A stretch of DNA of 52,771 nucleotides from Streptomonospora mangrovi (lineage in GTDB: Bacteria > Actinomycetota > Actinomycetes > Streptosporangiales > Streptosporangiaceae). Of the stretch, positions 17,089 to 38,019 are shown in pieces. Positions within the stretch are counted from its first letter, which is position 1. Each line of letters opens with the position of its first letter. The stretch is from contig NZ_JAJAQC010000045.1 in the NCBI RefSeq assembly GCF_027604915.1, positions 1-52,771 of the forward strand, read 5' to 3'. The translations under genes were made by a program, and so were the position numbers. The notes beneath the pieces were generated by a model. That model saw only the letters and a program-made list of their open reading frames with translations, was not told the origin of the DNA and ran no database searches.

Positions 17089-17118
17089 TTGACACGTGCG
17101 GCGGCGGCTGCCTACATT
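17089..17118 (+). promoter_or_regulatory. Housekeeping-type promoter of the Gfo/Idh-DUF6807 pair
   Basis: TTGACA (17089-17094) and TACATT (17113-17118) with an 18-nt spacer. The -10 hexamer is followed 4 nt later by a LacI-type operator. The AT-richer patch CTACATTATC stands out locally. Confidence 0.65.
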
Positions 17119-17122
17119 ATCT

Positions 17123-17138
17123 CGGCAAGCGCTTTCCA
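17123..17138. promoter_or_regulatory. LacI-family operator site A (CGGCAAGCGCTTTCCA)
   Basis: Near-palindrome centred on AAGCGCTT, just downstream of the -10 element, where a bound repressor would block initiation. It matches sites B-E in this window, and the LacI-family consensus of CcpA-like regulators. Confidence 0.8.
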
Positions 17139-17262
17139 AGGCGGGGGCGGAGTCGACGGCACTGCCCTCGGCCCGGCACCCCACCGGCGGACCGCTCCCC
17201 CGCGCCGCCGCCCCGCCGGTGCGCCCGCCCCGACCGGTACCGACGCGCACAAGGCAGGCCCC

Positions 17263-18417
17263 ATGAGCCAGACCCCCGTTCCGGTCGTCCTCGTCGGCGC
17301 GCACGGCCACGGCCGCTCCCACCTGCGCAACCTGCGCGCCCTCGCTGAGGAGGGGCTGGTGCGGCTGGCGGGCGTGTGCGACCTCGTGCCGCTGCCCGAC
17401 GCCGACCTGGCGGGCTTCGGCCCCGTCGCCCAGGACGGCGACCTGGCCGCGCTCATCGCCCGCACGGGCGCGCGGGTGACGATCCTGTGCACCCCCATCC
17501 ACACCCACCTGCCGCTGGCGCGCACCGCGCTGGCGGCGGGCTCGCACCTGCTGCTGGAGAAGCCGCCGACGGCCACCGCGACCGAGTTCGCGGCGCTGCG
17601 CGCGGCGGTGGCCGACTCCGGGCTGGCCTGCCAGGTCGGGTTCCAGAGCCTGGGGTCGGCGGCGGTCCCGGCCGTGCGCGCGCTGATCGCCGAGGGCGCG
17701 ATCGGCGCGGTGCGCGGGATCGGCGGCGCGGGCACCTGGATCCGCACCTCGGCCTACTACGCGCGGGCCGCGTGGGCGGGGCGGCGGGTGCTGGCCGGGC
17801 ACGACGTGGTCGACGGCGCGCTGACCAACCCCTTCGCCCACGCGGTGGCCACGGCGCTGGCGGTGGCGGGCGCCCAGGAGGCGGTCGGCGACGCGATTGA
17901 ACTGGAACTCTTCCACGCCCACCCGATCGAGAGCGACGACACCTCGTGCGTGCGGGTGCGCGCGCCCGACGGCACGCCCATCAGCGTGGCGGTGACGCTG
18001 TGCGCGCGCACGCACCGGCCGCCGCACCTGGTGGTGCACGGCGCCGCCGGGCGGATCACGCTGTACTACACGCTGGACGAGGTGCGCCTGGAGCGGCCCG
18101 GCGAGCCGCCGCGGACGATCGTGTACGGGCGCACCGACCTGCTGCGCAACCTGGTGGAGCACGTGGAGGGCGGCGCACCGCTGCTGGTGCCGCCCGAGGC
18201 GACGGCGGGGTTCACGGCCGTGCTCGACGCGGTCCGCCGCGCGCCCGACCCGCTGCCGGTCCCCGAGGAGTTCCAGGAGGTCACCGAGGAGGCGGACGGC
18301 ACGCACCGGGTGGTGGCCGGGGTGGACGACCTGGTGGCGCTGAGCGCGGAGCGGGTGGCGCTGTTCTCGGAACTGGGCGCGCCGTGGGCGGCGCTGGCCC
18401 AGCCCGGCCGCGCCTGA
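17263..18417 (+). CDS. Gfo/Idh/MocA-family oxidoreductase (first copy)
   Basis: 384 residues. The N-terminal Rossmann domain starts VVLVGAHGHGRSH (residues 9-20, an unusual variant of GxGxxG). EKP at 99-101 carries the family's catalytic Lys, and the C-terminal alpha/beta domain follows from about 125. These enzymes oxidise or reduce sugars, inositols or their derivatives with NAD(P). ATG 17263 has an AGG-type SD. It has its own promoter and LacI-type operator, and is followed 81 nt later by a DUF6807/PmoA-like gene, a pairing seen in sugar-catabolic clusters of actinomycetes (from memory). Substrate unknown. Confidence 0.85.
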   Translation: MSQTPVPVVLVGAHGHGRSHLRNLRALAEEGLVRLAGVCDLVPLPDADLAGFGPVAQDGDLAALIARTGARVTILCTPIHTHLPLARTALAAGSHLLLEKPPTATATEFAALRAAVADSGLACQVGFQSLGSAAVPAVRALIAEGAIGAVRGIGGAGTWIRTSAYYARAAWAGRRVLAGHDVVDGALTNPFAHAVATALAVAGAQEAVGDAIELELFHAHPIESDDTSCVRVRAPDGTPISVAVTLCARTHRPPHLVVHGAAGRITLYYTLDEVRLERPGEPPRTIVYGRTDLLRNLVEHVEGGAPLLVPPEATAGFTAVLDAVRRAPDPLPVPEEFQEVTEEADGTHRVVAGVDDLVALSAERVALFSELGAPWAALAQPGRA

Positions 18418-18498
18418 GCGCGCGGGTTGACGCGGGGCGCGGGGACTGCGCGGGGGCGGGCGGCAGCGGATTCGGCGGCTCGTCAAGGAGGCGGAGCG

Positions 18499-19497
18499 GT
18501 GACGGAAGGGAGCGGCCGGATGGCCGAGGAGGCAGCCGAGGCGGCAGCGGCGCGGACGAGCCGGGCGGCGCGGCCGGAGGGCACGGTGCCCGGGGGCGGC
18601 GGGAAGCCGGAGGAGACCCGGGGGGCGGCGGACGCGGAGGCCGTGGAGCTGCGCTGCCGCGGTGTCGCCGTGGCGTCGTGGCGCGCGGGCGCCGACGTGC
18701 CGCCGGACCTGTCGCCGCGCCCCTACCTGCACCCGGTGCGCACGCTGGGCGGGACGGTCGTCACCGAGGTCTACCCCGCCGACCACCCGCACCACCTGGG
18801 GGTGGGGGTGGCGGTGCCCGACATCGACGGCACGAGCTTCTGGGGCGGCACCACGTTCGTCCGCGACCGGGGGCCGGTGCTGCTGGACAACCACGGCCGC
18901 CAGGAGCACCGCGCGTGGACGCGGGCCGGGGAGTCGCGGCGGACCGAACGCGTCGCGTGGCTGAACCGAACCGGTGCGGAGTTGTGCGAGGAGGTCCGGG
19001 AGACCGCCGCCGTGGACCTCGACGCGCGGGCGTGGGCGCTGTGCCTGCGCAGCCGCCTGCGCAACACGTCGGGCCGCGAGCTTGAGGTCAACAGCCCCGC
19101 GACCAAGGGCCGCCCGGGAGCGGGCTACGGCGGCTACTTCTGGCGGGCGCCGAAGGAGGCGGAGCCGCCCCGCTGCCTCGGCCCGGAGCAGGAGGGCGAG
19201 ACCGCCCTGCACGGCTCCCGGTCGCCGTGGCTGGCCCTGTTCGGCGGCTCGTCGCCGGACACCCGCTGGACGCTGGTGTTCGCGGCCGTGGGCCCGGAGC
19301 GCGACCCGTGGTTCCTGCGCGCCCGGGAGTACCCCGGCGTGGGGGCGGCACTGGTCTGGGACACCCCGCTGAGGTTCGCGCAGGACGCGGAGATCGACCG
19401 CCACGTGGTCACCGTGGTGGCCGACGGCCACCTGTCGCCCTCCGAAGAGATCCCCGTTCTTGTCGCCAGAGCAGAAGCCGCAGCGGCTGCCGACTGA
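18499..19497 (+). CDS. DUF6807/PmoA-like protein
   Basis: 332 residues. After a long low-complexity N-terminus (to about residue 50) comes the recognised family core: RPYLHPVRTLGG, then DHPHHLGVGVAV with paired histidines, then FWGGTTF. Members are often called PmoA for a historical reason unrelated to methane oxidation and occur in sugar-degradation clusters. No catalytic role is established; a carbohydrate-binding beta-sandwich is plausible. GTG 18499 follows a perfect AAGGAGG 7 nt upstream, which decides the start. Likely co-transcribed with the Gfo/Idh gene and so in the LacI-type regulon. Confidence 0.8.
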   Translation: MTEGSGRMAEEAAEAAAARTSRAARPEGTVPGGGGKPEETRGAADAEAVELRCRGVAVASWRAGADVPPDLSPRPYLHPVRTLGGTVVTEVYPADHPHHLGVGVAVPDIDGTSFWGGTTFVRDRGPVLLDNHGRQEHRAWTRAGESRRTERVAWLNRTGAELCEEVRETAAVDLDARAWALCLRSRLRNTSGRELEVNSPATKGRPGAGYGGYFWRAPKEAEPPRCLGPEQEGETALHGSRSPWLALFGGSSPDTRWTLVFAAVGPERDPWFLRAREYPGVGAALVWDTPLRFAQDAEIDRHVVTVVADGHLSPSEEIPVLVARAEAAAAAD

Positions 19498-19509
19498 CGG
19501 CCGCCCGGT

Positions 19510-19815
19510 TCACCTGCCGAAGACGTCGGTGGCATCCTCGGCGGTCGCCGCCCGAACGAGCCAGACACGCAACCGGTCAAGATCCTCACACGAGAGCACG
19601 ACTTCGCGCTGCCGCTCGCTGACCTCGATCCCCCGAGCCCGCAGGACCTCAAGCACAGCCCGAGACTGGGCTTGCACTCGACCCTCCTCAAGCCCTTTCT
19701 CGCGCCCCTCCTCAAGCCCTTCCTCCCGGCCTTCCTCCCGGCCGATTCCGACGTACTTCTTGGCGAAGTCACTCTGCCACTCGTATTCCATGGTCTTCAT
19801 GAGATCCCCCGGCAC
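19510..19815 (-). CDS. Orphan duplicate of the C-terminal tail of the adjacent Rpn-like protein
   Basis: 101 residues from GTG 19815, or 96 from ATG 19800, which has GGGGGAT upstream. It repeats the last third of the neighbouring protein: MKTMEYEWQSDFAKKYVGIG, a GREEGREEGLEEGREKGLEEG-type coiled coil and RAVLEVLRARGIEVSERQR. The nuclease-like N-terminal part is absent. It has one fewer REEG unit and a diverged C-terminus (ATDVFGR instead of AHEVFAD). It arose by tandem duplication and begins 6 nt past the stop of the parent gene. It could be a non-functional remnant or an inhibitor able to pair with the parent coiled coil. Confidence 0.6.
   Translation of the reverse strand: MPGDLMKTMEYEWQSDFAKKYVGIGREEGREEGLEEGREKGLEEGRVQAQSRAVLEVLRARGIEVSERQREVVLSCEDLDRLRVWLVRAATAEDATDVFGR
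19518..19806. repeat. Tandem duplication, copy 1 (truncated gene)
   Basis: Nearly identical to 19829-20130. The offset is 312 bp at the left end and 324 bp at the right because copy 1 lacks one 12-bp unit (tcccggccttcc) in the REEG coiled-coil region. Homology fades at the left end, where the two C-termini differ, and ends abruptly on the right at the codons for EDLMKT/GDLMKT. Confidence 0.9.
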
Positions 19816-19821
19816 TTCCGG

Positions 19822-20748
19822 TCAATCGGCGAAGACCTCATGCGCGTCAGCGGCGGTCGCCGCCCGAACGAGCCAGACACGCAACCGGTCAAGATCGTCG
19901 CACGAAAGCACGGCATCGCGCTGCCGCTCGCTGACCTCGATCCCCCGAGCCCGCAGGACCTCAAGCACAGCCCGAGACTGGGCTTGCACTCGACCCTCCT
20001 CAAGCCCTTTCTCGCGCCCCTCCTCAAGCCCTTCCTCCCGGCCTTCCTCCCGGCCTTCCTCCCGGCCGATTCCGACGTACTTCTTGGCGAAGTCACTCTG
20101 CCACTCGTATTCCATGGTCTTCATGAGATCCTCCCAGTAGCGCCGCGCCTCCGCGTCGAGCTTCGCGACGACGTAGTCATAGTAGAACGCACGCCTGTCC
20201 TCGGGCGATGCATCCAGCGCGGCCTGGAGGCAGTCCAGGACCTTGCGGTTGTCCTGGTGCGCGGGCGCCGCCAGTACGGCGAGTTCGGGCACCTCTCGGG
20301 CGCGCTCGACATCGTCGATGACGGGAACGTTGTCGGGGCTCATAACCGCAGGCCGTAGAACCATGCCGCCCGCTTCGACCTCGATCGGGCCGGCTGCCCA
20401 GTCGGCGGTCTGCTTGGTGGGGCACACCACGAGCAGCCGCACCGGGCAGCGCAGCCTCTCGCGCACTTGGGCGACGTACAAAGGCCACGTATAGGGCTTG
20501 TCATCGTCTTGGCGCAACTGGATCTCGGTGATGACGGCGAGCTTCTTTACATTCTTCTTGCCGTAAAGGACCGTCACTTTGTCCGCTTTATGAGCTTTAA
20601 GGGAGATAGTCGTGAGATCGGTGCACCCGAGTTCCGCATGGTCGTACTCGGGCACCTCCATCCCGCACACCTCGCGAAGGATGGTCGGCACCACGTCCGG
20701 CGCCCATTGCAGGAACAGCACCTGCAATTCGTGTTCTTTTCCGGGCAT
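19822..20748 (-). CDS. Rpn/PD-(D/E)XK nuclease-like protein with REEG coiled-coil tail
   Basis: 308 residues. The N-terminal domain (about 1-150) begins MPGKEHELQVLFLQWAPDVVP and has a strand VLYGKKNVKKLAVITEIQLRQD whose EIQ fits the ExQ of Rpn/transposase_31-type nucleases. The C-terminal part has YYDYVVAKLDAEARRYWEDLMKTMEYEW and then repeated GREEG units, typical of this family. Related proteins promote recombination or are mobile-element passengers. ATG 20748 fits the family N-terminus although its SD is weak; the frame stays open to 20841. The 5' half (about 20480-20800) is less GC-rich than its neighbours, which suggests recent transfer. Nuclease activity is inferred. Confidence 0.7.
   Translation of the reverse strand: MPGKEHELQVLFLQWAPDVVPTILREVCGMEVPEYDHAELGCTDLTTISLKAHKADKVTVLYGKKNVKKLAVITEIQLRQDDDKPYTWPLYVAQVRERLRCPVRLLVVCPTKQTADWAAGPIEVEAGGMVLRPAVMSPDNVPVIDDVERAREVPELAVLAAPAHQDNRKVLDCLQAALDASPEDRRAFYYDYVVAKLDAEARRYWEDLMKTMEYEWQSDFAKKYVGIGREEGREEGREEGLEEGREKGLEEGRVQAQSRAVLEVLRARGIEVSERQRDAVLSCDDLDRLRVWLVRAATAADAHEVFAD
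19829..20130. repeat. Tandem duplication, copy 2 (within the full-length gene)
   Basis: The 3' third of the Rpn-like gene, duplicated as copy 1 at 19518-19806. It carries one more 12-bp REEG-encoding unit than copy 1. Confidence 0.9.
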
Positions 20749-20973: not shown

Positions 20974-20989
20974 TGGTAAGCGCTTTCCA
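20974..20989. promoter_or_regulatory. LacI-family operator site B (TGGTAAGCGCTTTCCA)
   Basis: The closest match to the ideal palindrome in this window (one arm mismatch). It lies 43 nt before the SDR gene and just downstream of a TTGACC (20941-20946), 18-nt spacer, CATCCT (20965-20970) promoter, the same layout as site A. Confidence 0.85.
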
Positions 20990-21031: not shown

Positions 21032-21991
21032 ATGCGCATCCTCGTCACCGGCGGGGCGGGCAGACTGGGCCGCAGTGTGGTCGCCGTGCTCGCCGCTCGC
21101 GGGCATGACGTGGCCTCCGCCGACCTCGTGCCCGCCGCCGCGCCCGCCGCCGCCTCAGCCCGTGCCTCCGCCCCCGCTTCCGCGTCCGGCGCCGCACAGG
21201 CGGACGGCGTCACCCACATCACCGCCGACCTGCTGGACGACACCGCGCGCGGCGACCTCTTCGCGCAGGTGCGGCCCGAGGCCGTGGTCCACCTCGCCGG
21301 GATCGCCGTGCCCTTCGCGCGGCCCGACACCGAGATCCTGGCCGTCAACACCCGGCTGGCCTGGGCCGTCCTGTCCTCCGCCGTCGAGCACGGCGCGCGG
21401 TCGGCCGTGGCCGCCTCCAGTCCCACCGTGTTCGGCTACGGCACCCCCGACTGGCGGCCCCGCTACCTGCCGCTGGACGAGGACCACCCGCGCGCGCCCC
21501 GCCACTCCTACGGGCTGAGCAAGCTGATCATCGAGGAGACCGCGCGCACCCTCTCCCGTGCCAGGGCCGCCGGCTGCACGCTCACCAGCGTCCGCCCCGG
21601 CTACGTCATCGCGCCCGAGGAATGGGCGGGCGCGCCCACCCAGCAGGGACACACGGTCGCCGAGCGGCTGCGCGACCCCGAACTGTCGGCGGTCGCGCTG
21701 TTCAACTACGTCGACGCGCGCGACGCGGCCGAACTGTTCGCGCTGCTGTGCGAGCGGTCCGGTGCGGCGACCGGCGGCGAGGTCTTCCACGCCGTCGCCG
21801 AGGACGCCCTCGCGCTCGCCCCGCTGGCCGAACTGCTGCCGCGCTTCCACCCGGGCACCGCGCCGCACGCCGCCGCGCTCACCGGCCGCCAGGGCGCCTT
21901 CTCCTCCAGGGCGGCGGCCGAGCGGCTGGGCTGGCGGCCCGCCCGCACCTGGCGCACCGAACTGCGCGGCCCCGTGCCCGAGGCGCCCTGA
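21032..21991 (+). CDS. NAD-dependent epimerase/dehydratase (extended SDR), uronate-dehydrogenase-like
   Basis: 319 residues. NAD-binding MRILVTGGAGRLGRSVVAVL at the start, HLAG near residue 88, and catalytic YGLSK (Tyr-x-x-x-Lys) with a preceding Ser in AASSPTVFG. Extended SDRs of this size include sugar epimerases and uronate dehydrogenase, which turns uronates into aldarolactones; I favour the latter because it shares a LacI-type operator with KdgD and sugar-acid dehydratase genes. Residues 35-65 are an Ala-rich insertion between the cofactor-binding strand and the rest. ATG 21032 has GGGGA upstream. Epimerase function is the main alternative. Confidence 0.8.
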   Translation: MRILVTGGAGRLGRSVVAVLAARGHDVASADLVPAAAPAAASARASAPASASGAAQADGVTHITADLLDDTARGDLFAQVRPEAVVHLAGIAVPFARPDTEILAVNTRLAWAVLSSAVEHGARSAVAASSPTVFGYGTPDWRPRYLPLDEDHPRAPRHSYGLSKLIIEETARTLSRARAAGCTLTSVRPGYVIAPEEWAGAPTQQGHTVAERLRDPELSAVALFNYVDARDAAELFALLCERSGAATGGEVFHAVAEDALALAPLAELLPRFHPGTAPHAAALTGRQGAFSSRAAAERLGWRPARTWRTELRGPVPEAP

Positions 21992-22208: not shown

Positions 22209-22237
22209 CCTATGATCGAACGGCGGAAAGAGTTTTC
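22209..22237 (+). promoter_or_regulatory. lacI promoter -10 and operator site C (CGGAAAGAGTTTTCCA)
   Basis: TATGAT (22209-22214) is a near-consensus -10 element. Eight nt later the 16-bp site 22222-22237 keeps both GGAAA and TTTCC arms of the LacI palindrome but has AG-T at the centre instead of CGC. It lies 24 nt before the regulator start, so it likely serves autoregulation, perhaps with weaker binding. Confidence 0.65.
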
Positions 22238-22260
22238 CACCAGGGGCGAAAGGTCAGGCT

Positions 22261-23295
22261 GTGGGCAGCGGATACGTGACATTGGAACAGGTCGCCCGGC
22301 ACGCCGGCGTCTCCCTGGCCACCGCCTCGCGCGTGCTCAACGGCAGCACCCGCCAGGTCGGCCGCACACTGCGCGACCGGGTCACCGCCAGCGCGCACGA
22401 GCTGGGCTACCTCGCCAACGCCTCGGCGCAGACCCTGGCCCGCAACACCAGCTCCCTGGTCGGGCTGATCGTGCACGACATCGCCGACCCCTACTTCTCC
22501 AGCATCGCCTCGGGCGTGACCCGCGCGGCCGAGGACGAGGGCCTTGTCGTGGTCCTGGGCACGACCGGCCGCACGCCCCAGCGCGAACTGGAACTGCTGT
22601 CGACGCTGCGCTCCCACCGCGCCCGCGCGGTGGTGCTGGCCGGCAGCCGCACCGTCGAGGAGGAGACCACGCGCCGCCTCGCCGACGAGATCGCCACGTT
22701 CACCGGGCGCGGCGGCCGGATCGCGTGCGTGTCCCAGGAGGGGCTGCCCGCCGACACGGTCGTCCCCGACAACCGCAACGGCGCCGCCGAACTCGCCCGG
22801 CACCTGATCGGCCTGGGCCACCGGCGCTTCGCGCTGCTGGCCGGCCCCACCAACCTGCGCACCGCGCGCGACCGACTCGACGGCTTCCACGCCGCGCTGT
22901 CGGCCGCCGGCATCGAACTGGACCCGCGCAACGTGGTGCACGGCGCCTTCACCCGCGACGGCGGCTACGAGTCCACCCGCCGCCTGCTGGCCGCCGGCAC
23001 CGACGCCACCTGCCTGTTCGCCGTCAACGACGTCATGGCCACCGGCGCCATGGCCGCGCTGCGCGACGCCGGCCTGCACGTGCCGCGCGACCTGTCGGTG
23101 GCCGGGTTCGACGACATCCCCACCCTGCGCGACCTCACCCCCGGCCTGACCACCGTGCGCCTGCCCCTGGAGTGGATGGGTGAGGAGGCCGCCCGCCTCG
23201 CCCTGAGTGAGGACGCCGCCGAGGAGCCCCAGACGGTGTCGGTGTCGGGCGAGGTCGTGGTCCGCGAAAGCACCGCCGCCCCCACCGCCGGCTAG
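22261..23295 (+). CDS. LacI-family transcriptional regulator
   Basis: 344 residues. The N-terminal helix-turn-helix is VTLEQVARHAGVSLATASRVLNG; the recognition helix SLATASRVLN is close to that of CcpA (SMATVSRVVN), in line with the TGGAAAGCGCTTTCCA-like sites found. A hinge (ASAQTLARNTSSLVGLIV) leads to a periplasmic-binding-like sensor domain ending in GFDDIPTLRDLTPGLTTVRLP. GTG 22261 has AAAGG upstream. A diverged operator lies before its own gene and better copies before the Gfo/Idh, SDR and KdgD operons, so it is the likely local repressor, released by a sugar or sugar acid. Confidence 0.92.
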   Translation: MGSGYVTLEQVARHAGVSLATASRVLNGSTRQVGRTLRDRVTASAHELGYLANASAQTLARNTSSLVGLIVHDIADPYFSSIASGVTRAAEDEGLVVVLGTTGRTPQRELELLSTLRSHRARAVVLAGSRTVEEETTRRLADEIATFTGRGGRIACVSQEGLPADTVVPDNRNGAAELARHLIGLGHRRFALLAGPTNLRTARDRLDGFHAALSAAGIELDPRNVVHGAFTRDGGYESTRRLLAAGTDATCLFAVNDVMATGAMAALRDAGLHVPRDLSVAGFDDIPTLRDLTPGLTTVRLPLEWMGEEAARLALSEDAAEEPQTVSVSGEVVVRESTAAPTAG

Positions 23296-23347: not shown

Positions 23348-24187
23348 TCAGTCCCCGTCGGGCAGGGGGCGGGTGGCGGGGCCGGTGTAGGTGGCGAGGA
23401 CCTGGCGCGGCAGGGGGCCCTTGATGCGGGACCGGCCGCGGCTCTCCTCCCAGGCGTGGGCGAGGATGCCCACCGAGCGGGACAGGACGAACAGGCCGCG
23501 GGCGAGTTCGGGGGCGAAGCCCAGGGAGGCGTACACCACCGCGGTGGCGCCGTCGATGTTCATCGGGACCGGGCGGGTCCGCCGCTGCGCCAACGCCTCC
23601 TCCAGGGCCAGCGCGGACTCCAGGGGGCCGGGGTCCACGGCGCCGGCCCGCACCCCCTCGGACACCATGGCCAGCAGCGGGTCGCGGCGGGGGTCGCGGG
23701 GGTGGAAGCGGTGGCCGAACCCCGGCACGTAGGCGCCCCGCTCCCGGTACTCGGCGACGACGGAGCGGGCGACGTCGCCGGTGTCCTCGCCGGCCGCGCG
23801 CCGCTCGCCCATCCGCTCCAGCAGGGCCAGGCACTGCTGCCCGGCGCCGCCGTGGACGTCGCCCAGGAGGTTGACCCCGGTGGCGACCGCGCTGTTGAGG
23901 CCGACCCCGCAGGTGGCCGCCATCCGGGCGGCGGCGATGGAGGGCGCCTGGGGGCCGTGGTCGACCCCGGCCACCAGCGCGGCCTCCAGCATCCGGGCCT
24001 GGGCCGGCTCGGGCAGGTCCCCGCGCAGCAGGAGCCACACCACCTCGACGAAGCCGAGCCGCCCGATGACGTCCTGCACCGGGTACCCGCGCAGGTCGAT
24101 CTCGCCGGGGGCGATCCGGGTGACGGCGGTGGCCCACCAGGCGCCGATCTCCTCGTGGGTCATGGTCGCGGCGTCCGGGGCGCTCAT
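23348..24187 (-). CDS. Citryl-CoA lyase / short citrate-synthase-like protein
   Basis: 279 residues, shorter than citrate synthase (about 370-430) but with its catalytic triad: His112 in VHGGAGQQ, His159 in PGFGHRFHPRDPR and Asp212 in MNIDGATAVVYASLGF. Short proteins of this type are annotated as citryl-CoA lyase (citryl-CoA to oxaloacetate and acetyl-CoA). ATG 24187 overlaps the stop of the CoA-transferase gene (ATGA), and that gene overlaps iclR, so all three are coupled. With the divergent TctABC importer this suggests catabolism of citrate or an analogue. Condensing (synthase) activity on another acyl-CoA is the alternative. Confidence 0.8.
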   Translation of the reverse strand: MSAPDAATMTHEEIGAWWATAVTRIAPGEIDLRGYPVQDVIGRLGFVEVVWLLLRGDLPEPAQARMLEAALVAGVDHGPQAPSIAAARMAATCGVGLNSAVATGVNLLGDVHGGAGQQCLALLERMGERRAAGEDTGDVARSVVAEYRERGAYVPGFGHRFHPRDPRRDPLLAMVSEGVRAGAVDPGPLESALALEEALAQRRTRPVPMNIDGATAVVYASLGFAPELARGLFVLSRSVGILAHAWEESRGRSRIKGPLPRQVLATYTGPATRPLPDGD

Positions 24188-25410
24188 ATCGCTCCCGCCT
24201 CTCTGAGCTGGTCGATGTCGGCGGGACCGTATCCGGCCTCGCGGAGGATCTCGTCGGTGTGCTCCCCCAGCAGCGGCGGGGGCTGGCCGGGGCCCAGGGC
24301 GTCGCCGTCGACGTGCACGCCGCTGCCCAGCACGCGCAGGCTGCGGCCCTCCTCGCCGGGGAAGGGCAGCGTGTGCAGCAGGCCCCGGTGGGCGATGTGG
24401 TCCAGGTCCAGGGCCTCGCGGACGCTGAGCACGCGCGCGGCCGGCACGCCCGCCGCCGACAGCGCGGCCTCCCACTCCGCGGCGGGCCGCCGGGCCAGGT
24501 GCTCCTCCAGCGCCTCGCGCAGCGCCTCGCGGTGGGCCTTGCGGTCCTCGCGGGCGGCGAAGCGCGGGTCCGCGGCGAGCCCGGGCGCCCCGACCACCGC
24601 GCACAGCGTCTCGAACTGCTCCTGCTTGTTGGCGGCGATGTTGAGCGCGCCGTCGGCGGTGCGGAAGGTGCCCGAGGGCGCGGCGGTGGCGTTCTCGTTG
24701 CCGATGCGCCGGGGCTCGACCCCGGCGGAGAGGTAGTTGGAGGCGCCCCACCCCATGGCGGTGATGGCGGTCTCGAGCATGGAGACGTCCAGGTAGGCGC
24801 CTTCGCCGCTGCGTTCGCGCCGGACCAGGGCGCTGGACACCGCGAAGGCCGCCGCCAGGCCGCCCAGGACGTCGGCGATGGGGAAGCCGGCGCGCAGGGG
24901 GCCGGTGTCGGCCGTGCCGGTGGCGTCCATCATGCCCGACAGCCCCTGCACGATCTGGTCGTAGGCGGGCCGGTCGCTGAGCGGTCCGTCGGCGCCGAAC
25001 CCGGAGACGGCGCAGTAGACCAGGCCGGGGTTGGCCGCGCGCAGCGCGTCCCACCCGAAGCCCAGGCGCTCCATGACACCGGGTCGGAAGTTCTCCAGCA
25101 GCACGTCGGCCCGCGCGACCAGGCGCCGCATGACCTCCCGGCCCCGGTCGGACTTCAGGTTCAGCGACAGCGAGCGCTTGCCGCTGTTCTGGGCCAGGAA
25201 GGAGGCGCCCATCCCCCGGGCGTTCAGCTCCGCCGAGGCGCCCAGCTGCCGCGCGAGGTCGCCGGATCCGGGGACCTCGACCTTGACCACGTCGGCGCCC
25301 ATGAGCCCGAGCTGGTAGCCGGCGTAGGGCCCGGCCAGGACGTTGGTGAGGTCCAGGACGCGCACGCCGGCCAGCGGCCGCCGGTCGGGCGCGGGCGCGC
25401 CGGTGCTCAC
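24184..25410 (-). CDS. Class III CoA-transferase (CaiB/BaiF family)
   Basis: 408 residues. Family features include LAGVRVLDLTNVLAGPYAGYQLGLMGADVVKVE at the N-terminus, NSGKRSLSLNLK, LLENFRPGVMERLG and RPAYDQIVQGLSGMM, in which Asp151 is the likely catalytic aspartate forming the acyl anhydride. It moves CoA between carboxylic acids without ATP. GTG 25410 overlaps the iclR stop by 4 nt. Next to a citryl-CoA-lyase-like gene and a tricarboxylate importer, the acceptor is probably citrate or a related hydroxy-acid, with succinyl-CoA or acetyl-CoA as possible donor; this is inference. Confidence 0.87.
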   Translation of the reverse strand: MSTGAPAPDRRPLAGVRVLDLTNVLAGPYAGYQLGLMGADVVKVEVPGSGDLARQLGASAELNARGMGASFLAQNSGKRSLSLNLKSDRGREVMRRLVARADVLLENFRPGVMERLGFGWDALRAANPGLVYCAVSGFGADGPLSDRPAYDQIVQGLSGMMDATGTADTGPLRAGFPIADVLGGLAAAFAVSSALVRRERSGEGAYLDVSMLETAITAMGWGASNYLSAGVEPRRIGNENATAAPSGTFRTADGALNIAANKQEQFETLCAVVGAPGLAADPRFAAREDRKAHREALREALEEHLARRPAAEWEAALSAAGVPAARVLSVREALDLDHIAHRGLLHTLPFPGEEGRSLRVLGSGVHVDGDALGPGQPPPLLGEHTDEILREAGYGPADIDQLREAGAI

Positions 25411-26201: not shown

Positions 26202-26217
26202 CACCCTTCCTCCCATG

Positions 26218-26234
26218 GGTCCACCAGGTGGACC
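26218..26234. promoter_or_regulatory. Perfect inverted repeat, likely IclR operator
   Basis: GGTCCACC-A-GGTGGACC, 8-bp arms around one base, immediately upstream of the iclR SD on the minus strand. A looser pair CCTTTTGG (26233-26240) and CCAAAAGG (26272-26279) lies beside it. Position suits autoregulation and control of the divergent tct promoter. Confidence 0.65.
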
Positions 26235-26408
26235 TTTTGGACTGTTAGACGGCATGGAGTGGCCACGGTACCCAAAAGGCGGCCGGACCGCCAGAGGGCC
26301 GCCGCGCGGCCCCGCGCGCCCGCCCCGGCGGCGGCGCAGGGCGCTGACCAGCGCGGGTGCGAGGCGCGTCCGGTGACCGTCTTGTTAACAGGAGATGTCG
26401 TCCGCCCA

Positions 26409-26438
26409 TTGACACGGCACCACGTGATCTGGATCATT
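26409..26438 (+). promoter_or_regulatory. Likely promoter of tctCBA
   Basis: TTGACA (26409-26414), an 18-nt spacer and ATCATT (26433-26438), about 60 nt before the tctC start. A TGTTAACA palindrome lies about 20 nt upstream of the -35 element and may be an activator site. Confidence 0.5.
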
Positions 26439-26499
26439 CTCGGAACCGATCCGTGGCCCCGCTGGTCCGCCTGGTGGTCCAAGGGTGAGAGGGAGGACG

Positions 26500-28118: not shown

Positions 28119-28119
28119 C

Positions 28120-32322: not shown

Positions 32323-33420
32323 CTATCCGGCCGCCGAGTCGGCCTCCCGGAAGCGCAGGCCGTGGCCGGGACCGGTGCTCGCCTCGGCCCAGCCGCCGGT
32401 GATCCGCACGCCGCTGGGGGCGGCCAGGGCGCCCAGGGCCGCGAAGGACGCGCGGTCGATGTCCTCGACCATCTCCGCGCGCGGTACGCACAGCGCCAAC
32501 TGGGCCGACAGCTCCGGCAGGAGGTGGGGCGCCACCGGCACGCCGCGGTGGGCGGCCAGCTCGGCGATCCGCAGGAACGGGGTGATGCCCCCGACCCGCA
32601 CCGCGTTGGGCTGGGCGATGTCGCACACCCCCGCCGCCAGCGCCGCCTCGAACGCGCGGACCGTGCGCAGGTTCTCCCCGATCGCGAAGGGCACCGCGGT
32701 GCGGCGGCGCAGCTCCACGTGGGCGGCCAGGTCCTCGGCCGGCAGCGGCTCCTCGACCCAGTACGGCTCGAAGCGCTCCAGCGCCCGCAGCGCCCGCACG
32801 GCCGCCGGCAGGTCCCAGCGCTGGTTGGCGTCCAGCATCAGGCGCCGTCCCGGCCCCAGCACCCGGCGCACCTGGGCCACCCGCTCGACGTCGCGCTCCA
32901 GGTCGGCGGAGCCGACCTTGACCTTGACCGCGCGGTGCCCGGCCGCCAGCCAGCCGCGCACCTGCTCCAGCAGGTCGGGCAGGTCGTAGTCGAGGTTGAC
33001 CCCGCTGCCGTAGGCGGCCACGCGGCTCCGCCGGGCGCCGATCAGCCCGACCAGGCCGCGCTCCGCCCGGCGGGCCGCCAGGTCCCACAGCGCGATGTCG
33101 ACCGCCGCCACCGCCATCGCGGCCAGCCCGCCCGAGCCCGCGTCGGCCAGGTGCGCGGTCAGGTCGGCCCAGCGCGGCCCCGGGTCCGGCGGCCGCCCCA
33201 CCAGCGCGGCCGGGCAGTCCTCCTCCAGCAGCGCGCGCACCGCGCCCACGCCCACGCGCGGCGTCCACGCGAACCCGGTGCCCTCGGCGCCCGAGGCGGT
33301 GGTGAGGCGGGTGATGACGAGGTGGTTGTGGGTGACCCCGCCGTCCCAGGCGCGGTGCAGCGGCAGCTCCAGCGTCCGGACGGCCAGGCCGGCGACGGTG
33401 TCGTGCGCGGCGGTGCCCAC
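32323..33420 (-). CDS. Enolase-superfamily sugar-acid dehydratase (mandelate racemase subgroup)
   Basis: 365 residues. The catalytic set of the mandelate racemase subgroup can be read: K-x-K at 166/168 (AVKVKVG), metal ligands Asp197 (MLDANQ), Glu in VEEP (about 223-224) and Glu249 (IGEN), and the Asp267-His299 dyad (CDIAQPN, APHLLP). Such enzymes dehydrate sugar acids to 2-keto-3-deoxy acids. GTG 33420 has GAGGG close upstream. It follows kdgD with an 8-nt gap and is last in the operon. Glucarate or galactarate is a good guess because of kdgD, but other aldonates are possible. Confidence 0.85.
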   Translation of the reverse strand: MGTAAHDTVAGLAVRTLELPLHRAWDGGVTHNHLVITRLTTASGAEGTGFAWTPRVGVGAVRALLEEDCPAALVGRPPDPGPRWADLTAHLADAGSGGLAAMAVAAVDIALWDLAARRAERGLVGLIGARRSRVAAYGSGVNLDYDLPDLLEQVRGWLAAGHRAVKVKVGSADLERDVERVAQVRRVLGPGRRLMLDANQRWDLPAAVRALRALERFEPYWVEEPLPAEDLAAHVELRRRTAVPFAIGENLRTVRAFEAALAAGVCDIAQPNAVRVGGITPFLRIAELAAHRGVPVAPHLLPELSAQLALCVPRAEMVEDIDRASFAALGALAAPSGVRITGGWAEASTGPGHGLRFREADSAAG

Positions 33421-33427: not shown

Positions 33428-34333
33428 TCACCCCTCCTTGACCGCGGCCAGGCCGGCGTCGATGATCGCGGCCAGCCGGGCGGTCTCCTCGTCGGTGGGG
33501 TCGGTGAAGGGCGGGCGCACCCCGCCCACCGCGGCTCCGCGCAGCCGGGCGCCCGCCTTGACCAGCGCCACGGCGTAGCCGGGGGCGCGGTCGCGCAGCG
33601 CCGCCAGCGGGCGGTAGAACACCTCCAGCAGGGTCTCGGCGAGCGGGTCGCCCGCGTGGAAGGCGCGGTAGAAGGCGGTGGCGACCTCGGGGGCGAAGGC
33701 GAACGCCGCCGAGGAGTACAGCGGCACCCCGATGGCGCTGTAGGCGGGCACCGACACCTCGGCGGTGGGCAGCCCGTTGAAGAAGGTGAACCCGGGGCCC
33801 TCGGCGCGGCGCACGGCGGCCACCACGCGCGCCATGCGGTCCACATCGCCCAGTCCGTCCTTGATGCCCACCACGCCGGGCAGCGCGGCGACCTCGGCGG
33901 CGGTCTCGGGGGTGAGGGCCAGCGACCCCCGCTGGTAGACGATCGCGGGGATGGGCACGGCCGAGGTGACCGCGCGGACGTAGTCGGCCAGGCCGCGCTG
34001 GGTGCCGCCCACCAGGTAGGGCGGCAGCAGCAGGATGGCGTCGGCGCCCAGGTCGCGGGCCGCGGCGGCCTGCTCCACCGCGGTGCCCAGGCTGCCTCCG
34101 GCCCCGGCCACCACCGGCACCCGCCCGCCGGTGACGGCCACGGCCGCGCGCACCACGCGCGCGTGCTCGGCGCTGGACAGGGCGTGGGCCTCGCCGGTGC
34201 CGCAGGCGGCGAAGACCCCGCCGGGGCGGTGGTCGAGCCCGGCGGCGATGTGGTGCTCCAGCGCGGCCTCGTCCAGGGCGCCGGTGCGGTCGAACGGCGT
34301 GACCGGGAAGAACAGGATTCCGTCGAAGTCCAT
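33428..34333 (-). CDS. kdgD: 5-dehydro-4-deoxyglucarate dehydratase-like (DHDPS family)
   Basis: 301 residues, TIM barrel of the dihydrodipicolinate synthase superfamily. The opening GILFFPVTPFDRTGALDEAALEHHI and FAACGTGEAHALS are characteristic of KdgD rather than DapA. The Schiff-base lysine is Lys158 in VVGIKDG and the partner tyrosine Tyr133 in IVYQRG. KdgD dehydrates and decarboxylates 5-dehydro-4-deoxyglucarate to 2-oxoglutarate semialdehyde. ATG 34333 has GGAGGAA about 10 nt upstream. A strong hairpin lies between this gene and the isomerase gene upstream, so kdgD and the dehydratase may be expressed at a different level. Confidence 0.85.
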   Translation of the reverse strand: MDFDGILFFPVTPFDRTGALDEAALEHHIAAGLDHRPGGVFAACGTGEAHALSSAEHARVVRAAVAVTGGRVPVVAGAGGSLGTAVEQAAAARDLGADAILLLPPYLVGGTQRGLADYVRAVTSAVPIPAIVYQRGSLALTPETAAEVAALPGVVGIKDGLGDVDRMARVVAAVRRAEGPGFTFFNGLPTAEVSVPAYSAIGVPLYSSAAFAFAPEVATAFYRAFHAGDPLAETLLEVFYRPLAALRDRAPGYAVALVKAGARLRGAAVGGVRPPFTDPTDEETARLAAIIDAGLAAVKEG

Positions 34334-34507: not shown

Positions 34508-35458
34508 TCAGGCGAGGTATTCCACGTGGCGCCGGGCCAGCGTGGCGAGCACGGCGTCGGGGTCGGCCGACCACACGTCGGCGTTGAAGATCTCCACCTC
34601 CACGTCGCCGGTGTAGCCCGCGGCCAGCACCGAGTCGTGCAGGCCGGCGACGTCGGCGTGGCCGTCGCCGACCATGCCGCGGCCCAGCAGGGCGTCGGCG
34701 GGCAGCGGCAGGATCCAGTCGCAGGCCTGGAAGGAGGCGATGCGGGCGCCGGCCCGGGCGATGGCGGCGTGCACCTGGGGGTCCCACCACACGTGGTAGG
34801 CGTCGACCACCACCCCGACCTGGCCCACGGGGAACCGCTCGGCGATGTCCACCGCCTGGCCGAGGGTGGACAGCACCGCCCGGTCGGCGCAGAACATCGG
34901 GTGCAGCGCCTCCAGCGCCAGGCACACGCCGCGCTCGGCGGCGTAGGGCGCCAGTTCGGCGATGCCCTCGACCACGCGCTCGCGGGCGCCGGCGAGGTCG
35001 CGGTCGCCCTCGGGCAGCCCGCCCACCACCATCACCAGGCAGGGCGCGCCCAGTTCGGCGGCCTCGTCCAGGGCGCGCCGGTTGTCGTCCAGGGCCGCGG
35101 CGCGGTCGGGTCCGGTGAGGAACCCGCCCCGGCAGTAGGAGGACACCCGCAGGCCCGCGTCGCGGACCAGCCGGGCGGCGGCGGCCGTCCCGGACTCGGC
35201 CACCGGCCCCCGCCACAGGCCGATGGCGGGGATCCCGGCGCGCGCGCAGCCCGCCACGGCCTCGGCCACACCCCACTGGCGGACGGTGATCTGGTTGAGG
35301 GACAGCCGGGCCAGGCGGGGGTCGCCGGGCCGGGGGGTGGGCACCCGCGCGGGCGCCATGGAGGGCACGTCCAGCGGACCGGTGGCGGCCTGGGCGCGGG
35401 CGGTCGCGGGGCGCGGCGGCGTGGCGGCGCCGGCGGGCATCGCGGGTTCGCCGGTCAC
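34508..35458 (-). CDS. Sugar phosphate isomerase/epimerase-like TIM-barrel protein (AP endonuclease 2 family)
   Basis: 316 residues. After about 50 low-complexity residues the xylose-isomerase-like barrel begins (LARLSLNQITVRQWGVAEAVAGCARAGIPAIGLW). Metal-site segments include ALEALHPMF, VVVDAYHVWWDP and VEVEIFNADVW, whose Glu, Asp and His residues match the family. Members isomerise or epimerise sugars, keto-sugars or inositol derivatives. GTG 35458 overlaps the stop of the DUF993 gene (GTGA); a later ATG (about 35440) is possible. Central gene of the LacI-controlled operon; substrate unknown. Confidence 0.85.
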   Translation of the reverse strand: MTGEPAMPAGAATPPRPATARAQAATGPLDVPSMAPARVPTPRPGDPRLARLSLNQITVRQWGVAEAVAGCARAGIPAIGLWRGPVAESGTAAAARLVRDAGLRVSSYCRGGFLTGPDRAAALDDNRRALDEAAELGAPCLVMVVGGLPEGDRDLAGARERVVEGIAELAPYAAERGVCLALEALHPMFCADRAVLSTLGQAVDIAERFPVGQVGVVVDAYHVWWDPQVHAAIARAGARIASFQACDWILPLPADALLGRGMVGDGHADVAGLHDSVLAAGYTGDVEVEIFNADVWSADPDAVLATLARRHVEYLA

Positions 35459-36624
35459 GGGGCCACCCCCACCACCTCCAGCAGGCGGCGCATGCGCCGC
35501 ACGGCGGTGTCGGGGTCGGTGAGCACCCCGGCGGCGTCGGCCAGCCGCAGGGTCTCGGCCAGGTGCACCACGTCGCGGGCGCCGTGCAGGCCGCCGACCA
35601 TGGTGAACCCGCGCTGGTAGCCGTTGAGCCAGGCCAGGAACGCGATCCCGGTCTTGTAGTGGTAGGTGGGGGCGGCGAATACGTGCCGGGCCAGCGGCAC
35701 GGTGGGGTCCATCAGGGCGCGGTAGCGTCCGGTGTCGCCGTCGTCCAGCGCGCGCAGCGCGGCGGCGGCGGCCGGCGCGATGGCGGCGAAGATCCCCAGT
35801 AGGGCGTCGGAGTGGCCCTGGTCGTCGCCGAGGATGAGGTCGGGGTAGTTGAAGTCGTCGCCGGTGTAGAGCCGCACCCCGGCGGGCAGCCGGCGGCGCA
35901 GGCGCACCTCCAGGTCGGCGTCCAGCAGCGACACCTTGATCCCGGCGACCCGGTCGGCGTGGGCCGCGATCAGCTCGGCGACCGTGCCGATGGCGTCGGC
36001 GGGGTCGGCGTGGCCCCAGTAGCCGGCCAGCGCGGGGTCGAAGGCGGCGCCCAGCCAGTGCAGCACGACGGGGCCGCGCACCTGCTCCAGGAGGCGGCCG
36101 TAGACCTTGGCGTAGTCCTCGGGGCCGCGCGCGGCGGCGGCGAGGTGCCGGCTGGCCATCAGCACGGGCACCGCGCCGGAGGCCTCGACGGTCTCCAGTT
36201 GCTCGGTATACGCCGTGATAACGCTTTCCAGAGTGGCGGGCGCGTCCGCCGGCAGGTGGTCGGTGCCCGCCCCGCACACCAGCGCGGCGCCGCGCGCGGC
36301 GGCCTCGGCGCCGGAGCGGCGGATCAGTTCGGCGGTGGCCGGCCAGTCCAGGCCCATGCCGCGCTGGGCGGTGTCCATGGCGTCGGCGACGCCCAGGCCC
36401 TGGTCCCACAGGTGGTGGCGGAAGGCCAGCGTGGCCTCCCAGTCCAGGCGGGCGGGCGCGCCGATGGCGTTGCCCCCCAGCGGGTCGGCCACGACGTGGG
36501 CGGCGGCGTAGGCGGTGCGCGAGCGCGGCGGCGCGGCCGGGGCGGGCGCCGGCGCGGGGGCGGGGCGGGGGGTGAACGCGGTGAAGCCGCCGCCGGGTGC
36601 GGGCAGGCGCAGGGCGTCGCTCAT
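35455..36624 (-). CDS. DUF993 family protein (DHDPS-like aldolase fold)
   Basis: 389 residues. Segments typical of DUF993 include NAIGAPARLDWEATLAFRHHLWDQGLGVADAMDTAQRGMGLDW, VITAYTEQLETVEASG, VVLHWLGAAFDPALAGYWG and VAGIKVSLLDADLEVRLRR, where the Lys in GIKVS is a candidate Schiff-base lysine in a dihydrodipicolinate-synthase-like barrel. No reaction is established for this family to my knowledge; a lyase or aldolase step on a sugar-derived keto acid is likely. It overlaps both neighbours by 4 nt. A partial LacI-type site lies inside the coding region (36215-36230). Confidence 0.82.
   Translation of the reverse strand: MSDALRLPAPGGGFTAFTPRPAPAPAPAPAAPPRSRTAYAAAHVVADPLGGNAIGAPARLDWEATLAFRHHLWDQGLGVADAMDTAQRGMGLDWPATAELIRRSGAEAAARGAALVCGAGTDHLPADAPATLESVITAYTEQLETVEASGAVPVLMASRHLAAAARGPEDYAKVYGRLLEQVRGPVVLHWLGAAFDPALAGYWGHADPADAIGTVAELIAAHADRVAGIKVSLLDADLEVRLRRRLPAGVRLYTGDDFNYPDLILGDDQGHSDALLGIFAAIAPAAAAALRALDDGDTGRYRALMDPTVPLARHVFAAPTYHYKTGIAFLAWLNGYQRGFTMVGGLHGARDVVHLAETLRLADAAGVLTDPDTAVRRMRRLLEVVGVAP
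36215..36230. promoter_or_regulatory. Weak intragenic LacI-like site F (GTGATAACGCTTTCCA)
   Basis: One arm (CGCTTTCCA) is perfect, the other has four mismatches. It lies within the DUF993 coding region and sits in a locally AT-richer patch (GTATACGCCGTGATAACG). It may be an auxiliary operator or chance. Confidence 0.3.
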
Positions 36625-37778
36625 CGCAGCTCCACCTCCTCAAGTTCCACCCGGTGGCCCGAGAGCGCCGAGCGCAGCCCGGCCTCGGCCAGTTGCAGGC
36701 CGCGCGCGCCCGAGAGCAGGTCGTAGGGGAACTCCTCGCCGGCGCAGACGTGGGCGATGAACCGCTCCCACTGGGCGCGGAAGCCGTTGACGAAGGTGGT
36801 GTTGTCGGGCACCGGCTCCCAGTGGTCGCGGTAGCCGCCGGGGTCGGCGGGGGCGTCGGGGTCCCACACCGCCCGGGGCGTGGTGACCCGGTGCTGCACG
36901 CGGCACTCGCGCAGGCCGGCCACCGCGCTGCCCTCTGTGCCGTCGACCTGGAACTCCACCAGTTCGCCGCGGTCCACCCGCACGCACCAGGAGGAGTTGA
37001 TCTGGGCGATCGCTCCGCCCTCCAGTTCGAAGACGGCGTAGGCGGCGTCCTCGGCGGTGGCGGCGTAGGGGCGGCCCTCCTCGTCCCAGCGGCGCGGGAT
37101 GTGGGTGGCGGTGCGCGCGGTCACCGCGCGCACGGGCGCGAACAGGCGCTCCAGGATGTAGTGCCAGTGGGGGAACATGTCCAGGACGATCCCGCCGCCG
37201 TCCTCGCTGCGGTAGTTCCAACTCGGGCGCTGGGCCTCCTGCCAGCCGCCCTCGAACACCCAGTAGCCGAACTCGCCGCGCACCGAGAGCACGCGGCCGA
37301 AGAACCCGCTCTCCACCAGGCGGCGCAGCTTGAGCAGTCCCGGCAGGAACAGCTTGTCCTGGACGACGCCGTTGCACACCCCGGCGTCGCGGGCGAGCTT
37401 GGCCAGTTCCAGGGCGGCGCTCAGCGTGCCGGCGGTGGGCTTCTCGGTGTAGACGTGCTTGCCGGCGGCGATGGCGGCGCGCACGGCGTCCTCGCGGACG
37501 GAGGTGATCTGGGCGTCGAAGTAGACCTCGATCGCCGGGTCGGAGAGAACGGTGTCGAGATCGGTGCTCCAGCGCTCCACGCCGTGGCGCTCGGCGATGG
37601 CGCGCAGCTTGTCGGGCGAGCGCCCCACGAGGACGGGCTCGGGCACCACGCGCGAGCCGTCGGGCAGCACGACCCCTCCGGCGTTCCTGATGGCCAGCAC
37701 CGACCTCGTCAAATGCTGGCGGTAGCCCATGCGGCCGGTGACGCCGTTCATGGCGACGGCCAGCACCCGGTCTTGCAT
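36621..37778 (-). CDS. Gfo/Idh/MocA-family oxidoreductase (second copy)
   Basis: 385 residues, first gene of the five-gene operon. The Rossmann start is VLAVAMNGVTGRMGYRQHL, an unusual form in which NGVTGRMG replaces GxGxxG. EKP occurs at 112-114 (HVYTEKPTAG) and a likely catalytic region DMFPHWHYILERLF follows. It probably oxidises a sugar or sugar acid with NAD(P). ATG 37778 has AGGA 7 nt upstream. The LacI-type site D (37805-37820) lies 26 nt upstream and site E 199 bp further. It is only distantly similar to the Gfo/Idh protein at 17263, so the two probably act on different intermediates. Confidence 0.87.
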   Translation of the reverse strand: MQDRVLAVAMNGVTGRMGYRQHLTRSVLAIRNAGGVVLPDGSRVVPEPVLVGRSPDKLRAIAERHGVERWSTDLDTVLSDPAIEVYFDAQITSVREDAVRAAIAAGKHVYTEKPTAGTLSAALELAKLARDAGVCNGVVQDKLFLPGLLKLRRLVESGFFGRVLSVRGEFGYWVFEGGWQEAQRPSWNYRSEDGGGIVLDMFPHWHYILERLFAPVRAVTARTATHIPRRWDEEGRPYAATAEDAAYAVFELEGGAIAQINSSWCVRVDRGELVEFQVDGTEGSAVAGLRECRVQHRVTTPRAVWDPDAPADPGGYRDHWEPVPDNTTFVNGFRAQWERFIAHVCAGEEFPYDLLSGARGLQLAEAGLRSALSGHRVELEEVELR

Positions 37779-37804
37779 ACGTCGTCCTATCACTCGGCAC
37801 CAGA

Positions 37805-37820
37805 AAGAAAGCGCTTTCCA
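37805..37820. promoter_or_regulatory. LacI-family operator site D (AAGAAAGCGCTTTCCA)
   Basis: On the minus strand it reads TGGAAAGCGCTTTCTT and begins 26 nt before the first operon gene. The bases just upstream in the direction of transcription include TAAAGT, a possible -10, so the layout repeats that of sites A to C. Confidence 0.85.
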
Positions 37821-38003
37821 AGGTACTTTAACGTCCTTTCCGCCGCCAGAGAGGGGTTCGCCCCGTTTCTCCGGTCGGCGTCGGCCGCCGGGGGCCGACC
37901 GGCTCGCGCACGGCGCCCGTCTTCCCTGGCCGGATCGGGCACGCGGGCGCTCCGGCGCCCGCCGCCGGGGCCGCTCGCCGCCGCCCAGACCGCTCCCCCG
38001 AAA

Positions 38004-38019
38004 CAGAAAGCGCTTACCG
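38004..38019. promoter_or_regulatory. LacI-family operator site E (CAGAAAGCGCTTACCG)
   Basis: Central AAAGCGCTT is intact, with mismatches toward the ends. Its centre is 199 bp from that of site D, close to 19 helical turns, so a tetrameric or bridged repressor could loop the DNA between them. Confidence 0.7.

Follow-up and report, generated by a model that had tools for sequence, protein, structure and literature searches.

An actinomycete contig of 52,771 nucleotides (Streptomonospora mangrovi, NZ_JAJAQC010000045.1; a whole contig of a 6.36-Mb genome, with a GC content of 75%, and hereafter called the window) carries a gene for a LacI-family regulator (22261-23295) and, on both sides of a citrate-type module, genes for sugar-oxidation proteins that share an operator-like palindrome. 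The questions raised by this locus are whether the regulator governs these scattered genes, and on which substrate they act. We consider it likely that the LacI-family protein acts as local repressor in a regulon for pectin utilisation, whose operator is also present at pectate lyase and transporter genes elsewhere in the genome. The window holds four gene sets of this kind: a Gfo/Idh-family oxidoreductase gene (GfoA) followed by a DUF6807 gene, a short-chain dehydrogenase/reductase (SDR) gene, lacI itself, and a five-gene operon that starts with the triad GfoB-DUF993-TIM and ends with a KdgD-like gene of the DHDPS family and an enolase-superfamily gene (ENO).

The operator consensus is TGGNAAGCGCTTNCCA, with the core AAGCGCTT, and sites were scored over 14 informative positions. 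A scan of the 52.8-kb window for matches at 11 or more of these positions, with at least six of the eight core positions, returned five operator sites only. An earlier note on this DNA had placed five sites at the promoters of the Gfo/Idh-DUF6807 pair, the SDR gene, lacI and the five-gene operon, and domain searches agree with it on these gene neighbours. Four sites have the exact core (17127, 20978, 37809 and 38008), for which shuffled sequences gave a mean of 0.24 and a maximum of two; the fifth, CGGAAAGAGTTTTCCA, is degenerate (11/14) and starts at 22224 rather than at 22222. Two of the five (37805 and 38004) both lie 5' of the five-gene operon, so there are five sites for four gene sets. 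Genome-wide the core is not special (47 occurrences, and 42 for the reversed control), yet four within 21 kb are, given a Poisson expectation of about 0.16. With two or fewer mismatches to TGGNAAGCGCTTNCCA there are 25 sites in the genome versus eight for the reversed control, and the five matches with at most one mismatch are each at a gene of the regulon set. A chance origin of the sites was rejected on the shuffle counts and on the counts for pectate lyases and GfoB sites given below.

Conservation was assessed in the window genome (G000) and five congeners (G001-G005). The GfoA site is found in all six genomes (461 bp upstream in G005), as is the GfoB site, always accompanied by another 155-199 bp farther 5'; the search of relatives that the note had proposed therefore recovers the motif at both genes in every congener. 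The SDR site is present in all four genomes with an SDR gene in the cluster, and in G001 and G005 a site persists at the same position beside short SDR-like remnants. The paired GfoB sites are spaced by 199, 197, 156, 155, 156 and 156 bp, values that fall into two sets differing by about 42 bp (four helical turns) and give a hint of phase keeping. We do not claim DNA looping between 37805 and 38004, as other pairs of sites are 24, 67-68, 81, 102, 137, 203, 226, 228 and 359 bp apart and have no common phase.

The placement of the sites at promoters, as described in the note, holds in part. A consensus scan found a promoter-like TTGACA-18-TACATT element for GfoA, next to the site at 17123, and a similar block was aligned by eye in six genomes. 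The same scan found none at 20974, 22224, 37805 and 38004, where -10-like blocks conserved between genomes were recognised by eye. Throughout the genus the operator is located within a few bases 3' of such elements, again as judged by eye (TTGACA and TA(C/A/G)ATT for GfoA, with TTAAATT in G004, and GTTAAAGTAC for GfoB), which is expected of a repressor that covers the transcription start.

The note had kept the regulon to the window, and this scope is too small. A genome-wide motif search, which the note had itself suggested, placed 12 of the 25 sites upstream of regulon-type genes (three of these in the window, where the two weak sites need more mismatches) and one immediately 3' of the pectate lyase gene on C37. 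The remaining 12 compare with the eight of the reversed control, and the six of them that were inspected (C16 twice, C30:4499, C46, C57 and C67) have no regulon-type gene nearby. Eight genomes together have 26 pectate lyase genes of family PF00544, and a site scoring at least 11/14 lies within 1.2 kb upstream of the PF00544 domain in 22, including all three such genes of the window genome. At the background rate (seven off-target hits, by manual count, over 440 kb of cluster DNA) 0.019 sites per gene would be expected, and the 26 genes are not independent, given that orthologues are counted repeatedly and that G004 contributes almost identical copies close to contig ends. Where the sites 5' of pectate lyases are paired, their spacing is conserved (24 bp in three genomes and 67-68 bp in five), and the operons of the C28 and C30 type (Table 1) keep their paired sites in G001 and G002. 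Site thresholds were not uniform: 11/14 was applied to the genus clusters, the PF00544 genes, the added loci and the surroundings of the KduI gene described below, 12/14 to remote sites of the own genome and to C28 and C30 counterparts, and loci of other genera were scanned partly at one value and partly at the other. On the basis of the operator at pectate lyase genes, the wider gene set looks like a pectin regulon.

Several further arrangements were observed. The operator-bearing pectate lyase gene of L073 (7944-12400; G000:C85) is followed by TctCBA, a hint that TctCBA may import a pectin product, and TctA genes are present near the triad in several other loci. At L147 (3886), an operator lies between a GH42-like gene and a relative of the beta-helix-like protein of C109 (both recognised by eye), which suggests that pectin side chains may be included in the regulon.

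Several lines of comparison bear on the identity of the regulator. The genome encodes 16 LacI proteins, and only that of the window has the TASRV recognition helix. This helix is present in all 18 LacI homologues compared, the window's included, although the search pattern for these homologues itself demanded TASRV (each locus gave a match). Among 44 LacI-like open reading frames from the loci fetched by DUF993, 25 lack a readable recognition helix and the other 19 all carry TASRV; gene calls were crude, made by GC-frame or longest open reading frame. The note had proposed co-occurrence of lacI with the gene set as a check. All 20 DUF993-positive genomes have a LacI homologue scoring 241 bits or more, and so does none of six DUF993-negative ones, where the best match is no higher than 183 bits in five and weaker by E-value in G019 (Fisher's test, about 4e-6, with relatedness ignored and the cut-off set after the list had been seen). 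Ten other genera have the homologue no more than about 5 kb from the triad (TIM is out of view in G022, at a contig end), and in eight of them a site lies between or before LacI and the triad; at the threshold applied, G006 and G022 have theirs only at another operon. In two further genera (G011 and G013) LacI adjoins GfoA-DUF6807, GfoC and a C28-type transporter with paired sites, and identities to the window genome are 80-82% for the permeases, 68-69% for GfoC and 60-65% for the binding protein. This arrangement ties the remote C28 operon to the regulator of the window. Within 30 kb of the pectate lyase, C28 and C30 sites there is no LacI gene. We therefore regard the window LacI as a credible regulator of the sites, and the comparison supports site conservation, regulon membership and this assignment. 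Since the sites are kept in relatives and the helix is unique in the genome, the idea put forward in the note that the genes flanking the citrate module on either side answer to the protein at 22261 appears to hold.

Table 1. Features of the candidate regulon in the window, at remote sites of the same genome and at related loci
Feature	Position	Strand	Remarks
Promoter-like TTGACA-18-TACATT	17089-17118	+	Upstream of GfoA
Operator CGGCAAGCGCTTTCCA	17123-17138		For GfoA-DUF6807; just 3' of conserved -10-like box
GfoA, Gfo/Idh/MocA-family oxidoreductase	17263-18417	+	Pfam PF01408, PF22725
DUF6807 protein	18499-19497	+	PF14100; predicted beta-sandwich, model pLDDT 82.9
Operator TGGTAAGCGCTTTCCA	20974-20989		Precedes SDR gene
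SDR, NAD-dependent epimerase/dehydratase family	21032-21991	+	PF01370; possible uronate dehydrogenase (weak)
Degenerate operator CGGAAAGAGTTTTCCA	22224-22239		Precedes lacI; possible autoregulation; threshold reached in 4/6 genus genomes
LacI-family regulator	22261-23295	+	Recognition helix GVSLATASRVLNG; HTH and periplasmic-binding-protein-like effector domain (PF00356, PF13377) over cut-off
ENO, enolase superfamily (mandelate racemase type)	32323-33420	-	Probable sugar-acid dehydratase or cycloisomerase
DHDPS-family protein (KdgD-like)	33428-34333	-	Probable 5-keto-4-deoxyglucarate dehydratase; NF002958 384.2 bits, cut-off 278
TIM, xylose-isomerase-like TIM barrel	34508-35440	-	PF01261
DUF993 protein	35455-36624	-	PF06187 600.9 bits
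GfoB, Gfo/Idh/MocA-family oxidoreductase	36621-37778	-	First operon gene; Pfam match
Proximal GfoB-operon operator	37805-37820		TGGAAAGCGCTTTCTT on minus strand
Distal GfoB-operon operator	38004-38019		CGGTAAGCGCTTTCTG on minus strand; 199 bp upstream of proximal
Two sites	C28		Between sugar-type ABC operon and divergent Gfo/Idh gene GfoC
Two sites	C30		Oligopeptide-type ABC operon ending in second DUF6807 gene, after Gfo/Idh gene GfoD
One site	C37		Pectate lyase
Two sites	C109		Pectate lyase
One site	C85		Pectate lyase, then TctCBA
One site	C109:67026		Protein with beta-helix match below Pfam cut-off; protein and site conserved in G002
Permease/amine oxidase-like operon	L231 1342-4960		Operator near or before
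Permease/amine oxidase-like operon	L228 243-5120		Operator near or before
Permease/amine oxidase-like operon	L229 3522-7377		Operator near or before
Permease/amine oxidase-like operon	L230 10167-14774		Operator near or before

From these arrangements we infer binding, repression, an inducer, pectin as the physiological substrate, the cargo of the importers and every enzyme step. When no inducer is present, LacI would occupy the TGGNAAGCGCTTNCCA palindromes at the transcription starts and block them. Release of the protein would be triggered by a sugar acid from pectin, probably (oligo)galacturonate or one of its catabolites. Secreted pectate lyases would then cleave pectin, and the fragments would be taken up by two ATP-binding cassette (ABC) importers, one of the sugar type (C28) and one of the oligopeptide type (C30). 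Degradation in the cytoplasm would fall to the Gfo/Idh and DUF6807 proteins and to the GfoB-DUF993-TIM operon, with SDR and ENO, often joined by a KdgD-like protein, forming an optional branch for oxidised uronates.

A further 80 loci, fetched by DUF993 alone and not used to set the motif, extend the comparison beyond the genus (some may be of the same species as the genomes above). Of these, 23 were picked by hand, by title, as a Nocardiopsis group, which includes one Glycomyces fuscus, one Thermobifida fusca and one Streptomonospora record. The GfoB site is present in all 22 usable loci of this group (those with enough upstream DNA) and in 29 of 53 other loci. No TIM gene has a site (0/23 in the group and 0/46 elsewhere), nor has any ENO gene in 21 loci of the group, and DUF993 genes rarely do (1/22 and 2/55). 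Corresponding counts are 4/16 and 14/24 for LacI, 2/12 and 4/5 for GfoA, 0/14 and 0/2 for SDR, and 27/208 and 24/675 for unassigned genes, where many of the 27 represent the GfoC/transporter promoter. In Nocardiopsis loci, SDR, DUF6807, GfoA and often GfoC are co-directional, which makes a shared promoter further upstream likely, and on these sequences to have one site at GfoA and another at SDR, as the window does, is a trait of its genus. The proteins nearest to the DUF993 protein of the window are in Nocardiopsis, Streptomonospora and Thermobifida records, and the five-gene operon with its operator is present in T. fusca (L142). For a site-bearing gene of Prauserella, ThuA-GSDH-CBM6 replaces an assignment as ThuA-DUF1080.

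The note had also suggested a uronate route in this gene set, for which the support is partial. For 5-dehydro-4-deoxyglucarate dehydratase, the DHDPS-like protein scores above the subfamily cut-off of NCBIfam and below that of the equivalog TIGR03249 (290.6 versus 373.95); its nearest solved chain is 4ur7, a keto-deoxy-D-galactarate dehydratase. Neither ENO nor SDR passes an equivalog cut-off, and of two PDB hits for SDR at E<=1e-12 neither is named uronate dehydrogenase. The Gfo/Idh proteins belong to their superfamily and are far from passing the equivalog cut-offs for levoglucosan and glycoside 3-dehydrogenases. Close solved relatives have generic names (3oqb, an 'oxidoreductase', for GfoB; 7vpf, 3qc0 and 3ju2 for TIM), and the solved relative of DUF993, 4dnh, is labelled uncharacterised. 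Weak DHDPS hits of DUF993 (E 0.026-0.045) lead us to guess at a Schiff-base aldolase or dehydratase. The predicted fold of DUF6807 weakly resembles those of galactose mutarotase-like and lyase/GH2 beta-sandwich domains (Foldseek query TM-scores of 0.37 or less among the matches listed), which is a hint only, and certain His, Glu and Arg residues are invariant across 14 sequences, as would suit an enzyme.

Pectin fragments are usually processed by enzymes of families GH88/GH105, PL22 and GH28. GH88/GH105 and PL22 were each found in none of 12 genomes, and GH28 passed its cut-off in none of eight. KduI-family hits are absent from G001, G002, G004 and G005, and G003 has one match. In the window genome, KduI scores over the NCBIfam cut-off and the adjoining KduD-like gene is just below its own (TIGR01832, 325.8 versus 338.85); these genes are located with IclR-type genes and a lactate-type permease gene at L237 6789-9434 (G000:C72). 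Given this KduI and KduD-like pair, we rejected the view that pectate products lack any known route. Among the families tested (GH88/GH105, PL22 and GH28), no known enzyme was found that would convert unsaturated oligogalacturonide to the monomer. Because GH88/GH105, PL22 and GH28 were not found, the regulon enzymes of unassigned function (Gfo/Idh, DUF993, TIM and DUF6807) become candidate replacements that may fill this gap in pectin-fragment processing. One specific scheme, which we regard as speculative and on the whole doubtful, is that Gfo/Idh with DUF6807 and GfoB-DUF993-TIM take the place of GH88/GH105 and oligogalacturonide lyase in a route not described before. The oxidoreductase would yield a keto-uronide, DUF6807 or TIM would cut the glycosidic link by elimination, and DUF993 would split the product in the manner of an aldolase.

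Readers should weigh a number of observations that count against a single pectin-responsive repressor. Two window sites (22224 and 38004) are weak at 11/14, and the lacI site is below the threshold in G002 and doubtful in G005. A site is missing from four of the 26 PF00544 genes: three in G004 (one whose upstream DNA is complete and two cut by contig ends after 395 and 9 bp) and one in G001, which is the second of two such domains in one long open frame. Another LacI gene is located about 7 kb from the C109:67026 site, and at L243 4948-10937 (G002:C100) a different LacI protein stands beside TGGCAATCGCTTGCCA and apparent TRAP transporter genes. Judging from the sequence, near-identical operators are thus not exclusive to one regulator. 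Other genera have between zero and seven sites per genome with at most one mismatch; G015 and G016 have such sites and no DUF993, and G012 and G021 have DUF993 and no such site. No LacI site was found in the 14 kb around the KduI, KduD-like and IclR genes, which places part of pectin catabolism outside the regulon. In G006, G007, G018 and G022 a site precedes a permease and amine oxidase operon by the LacI homologue, assigned by sequence and position (membership of the copper amine oxidase family was confirmed for G022 only). No obvious pectin link is present at these loci of four genera, which indicates that pectin is not the ancestral theme and that the inducer may be more general.

The last point leads to the strongest alternative, which we rate somewhat below an even prospect: what the regulator senses may be a general intermediate, a keto-sugar or sugar acid, formed by GfoB-DUF993-TIM, with pectin genes recruited in the Nocardiopsis group and other substrates served elsewhere. 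The ten other genera with LacI near the triad agree with this idea, having no relative of the three pectate lyases in the fetched stretches (none was sought genome-wide), as do the many transporter types beside the triad across the 80 loci and the GfoB sites at more than half of the loci outside the Nocardiopsis group. However, it is compatible with a local pectin regulon and alters the inducer only. A different LacI-family or CcpA-like protein might instead bind the sites, leaving the window LacI in control of itself and its neighbours. Cores of the AAGCGCTT type are common among LacI-family operators, and the second LacI protein in G002 shows how a near-identical operator can accompany another regulator. 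Nonetheless, we think this improbable, as none of the other LacI proteins of the genome has the TASRV helix, regulator, triad and site travel together across genera, and the pectate lyase, C28 and C30 sites have no LacI gene within 30 kb. Far less probable still is that chance palindromes in a GC-rich genome link the remote genes. The core is barely commoner than its reversed control, but an expectation of about 0.5 sites for the 26 (non-independent) pectate lyase genes compares with 22 observed, and the spacing of paired sites 5' of these genes is conserved.

Within the genus, GfoA and GfoB-DUF993-TIM are retained in all six genomes, and SDR, ENO and the KdgD-like gene occur together in four (G000, G002, G003 and G004) and are jointly missing from the fetched clusters of G001 and G005, where 37-38 kb were searched for them. 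A view of these three genes as one unit holds for the six genomes and fails generally: among the 16 Nocardiopsis-group loci that show both SDR and ENO, 10 include a KdgD-like gene and six do not, and in L149 and L154 as well SDR and ENO occur with no KdgD-like gene in the locus. The pairing of SDR with ENO is thus the constant element, and the KdgD-like gene is more loosely associated or sits elsewhere.

The citrate-type module (about 23.3-30.4 kb) has genes for a citrate synthase-like protein, a family III CoA transferase, IclR and TctCBA at 23348-29673. Of the six genomes, only that of the window and G003 have the cluster interrupted by it. The fetched clusters of G001, G002, G004 and G005 showed none of its genes and have a contiguous gene set, in keeping with the note's description of the module as lodged between regulon genes. 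Because no site of 11/14 or better lies within the module and these congeners lack it in their clusters, we rejected it as a regulon member. An uncharacterised gene on the minus strand (19516-20748), between DUF6807 and SDR, is also seen in G003; the remaining congeners showed no counterpart in their fetched clusters. A partial C-terminal copy lies directly downstream (89% identity over 101 residues).

The oxidative uronate pathway employs Udh, galactarate/glucarate dehydratase and KdgD. The window resembles it in having a KdgD-like gene beside an enolase-family gene and an SDR gene that co-occurs with the latter, and differs in that its SDR is not recognised as a uronate dehydrogenase and its enolase-family protein fails all equivalog cut-offs. 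The LacI-family uronate regulators KdgR, ExuR, UxaR and UxuR target genes of the Uxa/Uxu/Kdu type, whereas the window regulon holds Gfo/Idh, DUF993, TIM-barrel and DUF6807 genes instead. Those regulators, likewise of the LacI family, have been described for galacturonate and glucuronate catabolism (PMC4052901), and the words 'Pectin' and 'Nocardiopsis' are absent from the main text of that paper. Glycoside pathways that proceed by oxidation, elimination, hydration and reduction, such as those of Agrobacterium tumefaciens (GlycDH/AtOGE) and Bacillus smithii (levoglucosan), also have operons that pair Gfo/Idh-type oxidoreductases with TIM barrels of the sugar phosphate isomerase/epimerase type (PMC10628242, PMC7676230 for the pathways; PMC10628242 for the operons). 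In contrast, section 7 of PMC10628242 does not name DUF993 or DUF6807, and the substrate in the window would be a uronide. In the open-access literature searched we found no role described for DUF993, DUF6807 only in passing, and, for combinations of pectin and LacI, no prior description of this regulon. LacI-family uronate regulators are already known, and those of the window type look like a distinct group with an unusual enzyme set.

Pectin use would thus provide a physiological context for DUF993, DUF6807 and widespread Gfo/Idh and TIM-barrel proteins with generically named solved relatives. The locus poses the question of how the products of pectate lyases are processed in genomes where the usual enzymes for this were not found, and it offers the regulon enzymes of unassigned function as testable candidates for a pectin-digesting route. 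The operon and operator of Thermobifida fusca make the proposal testable in a laboratory species. If the undescribed route were true, it would give functions to DUF6807 and DUF993.

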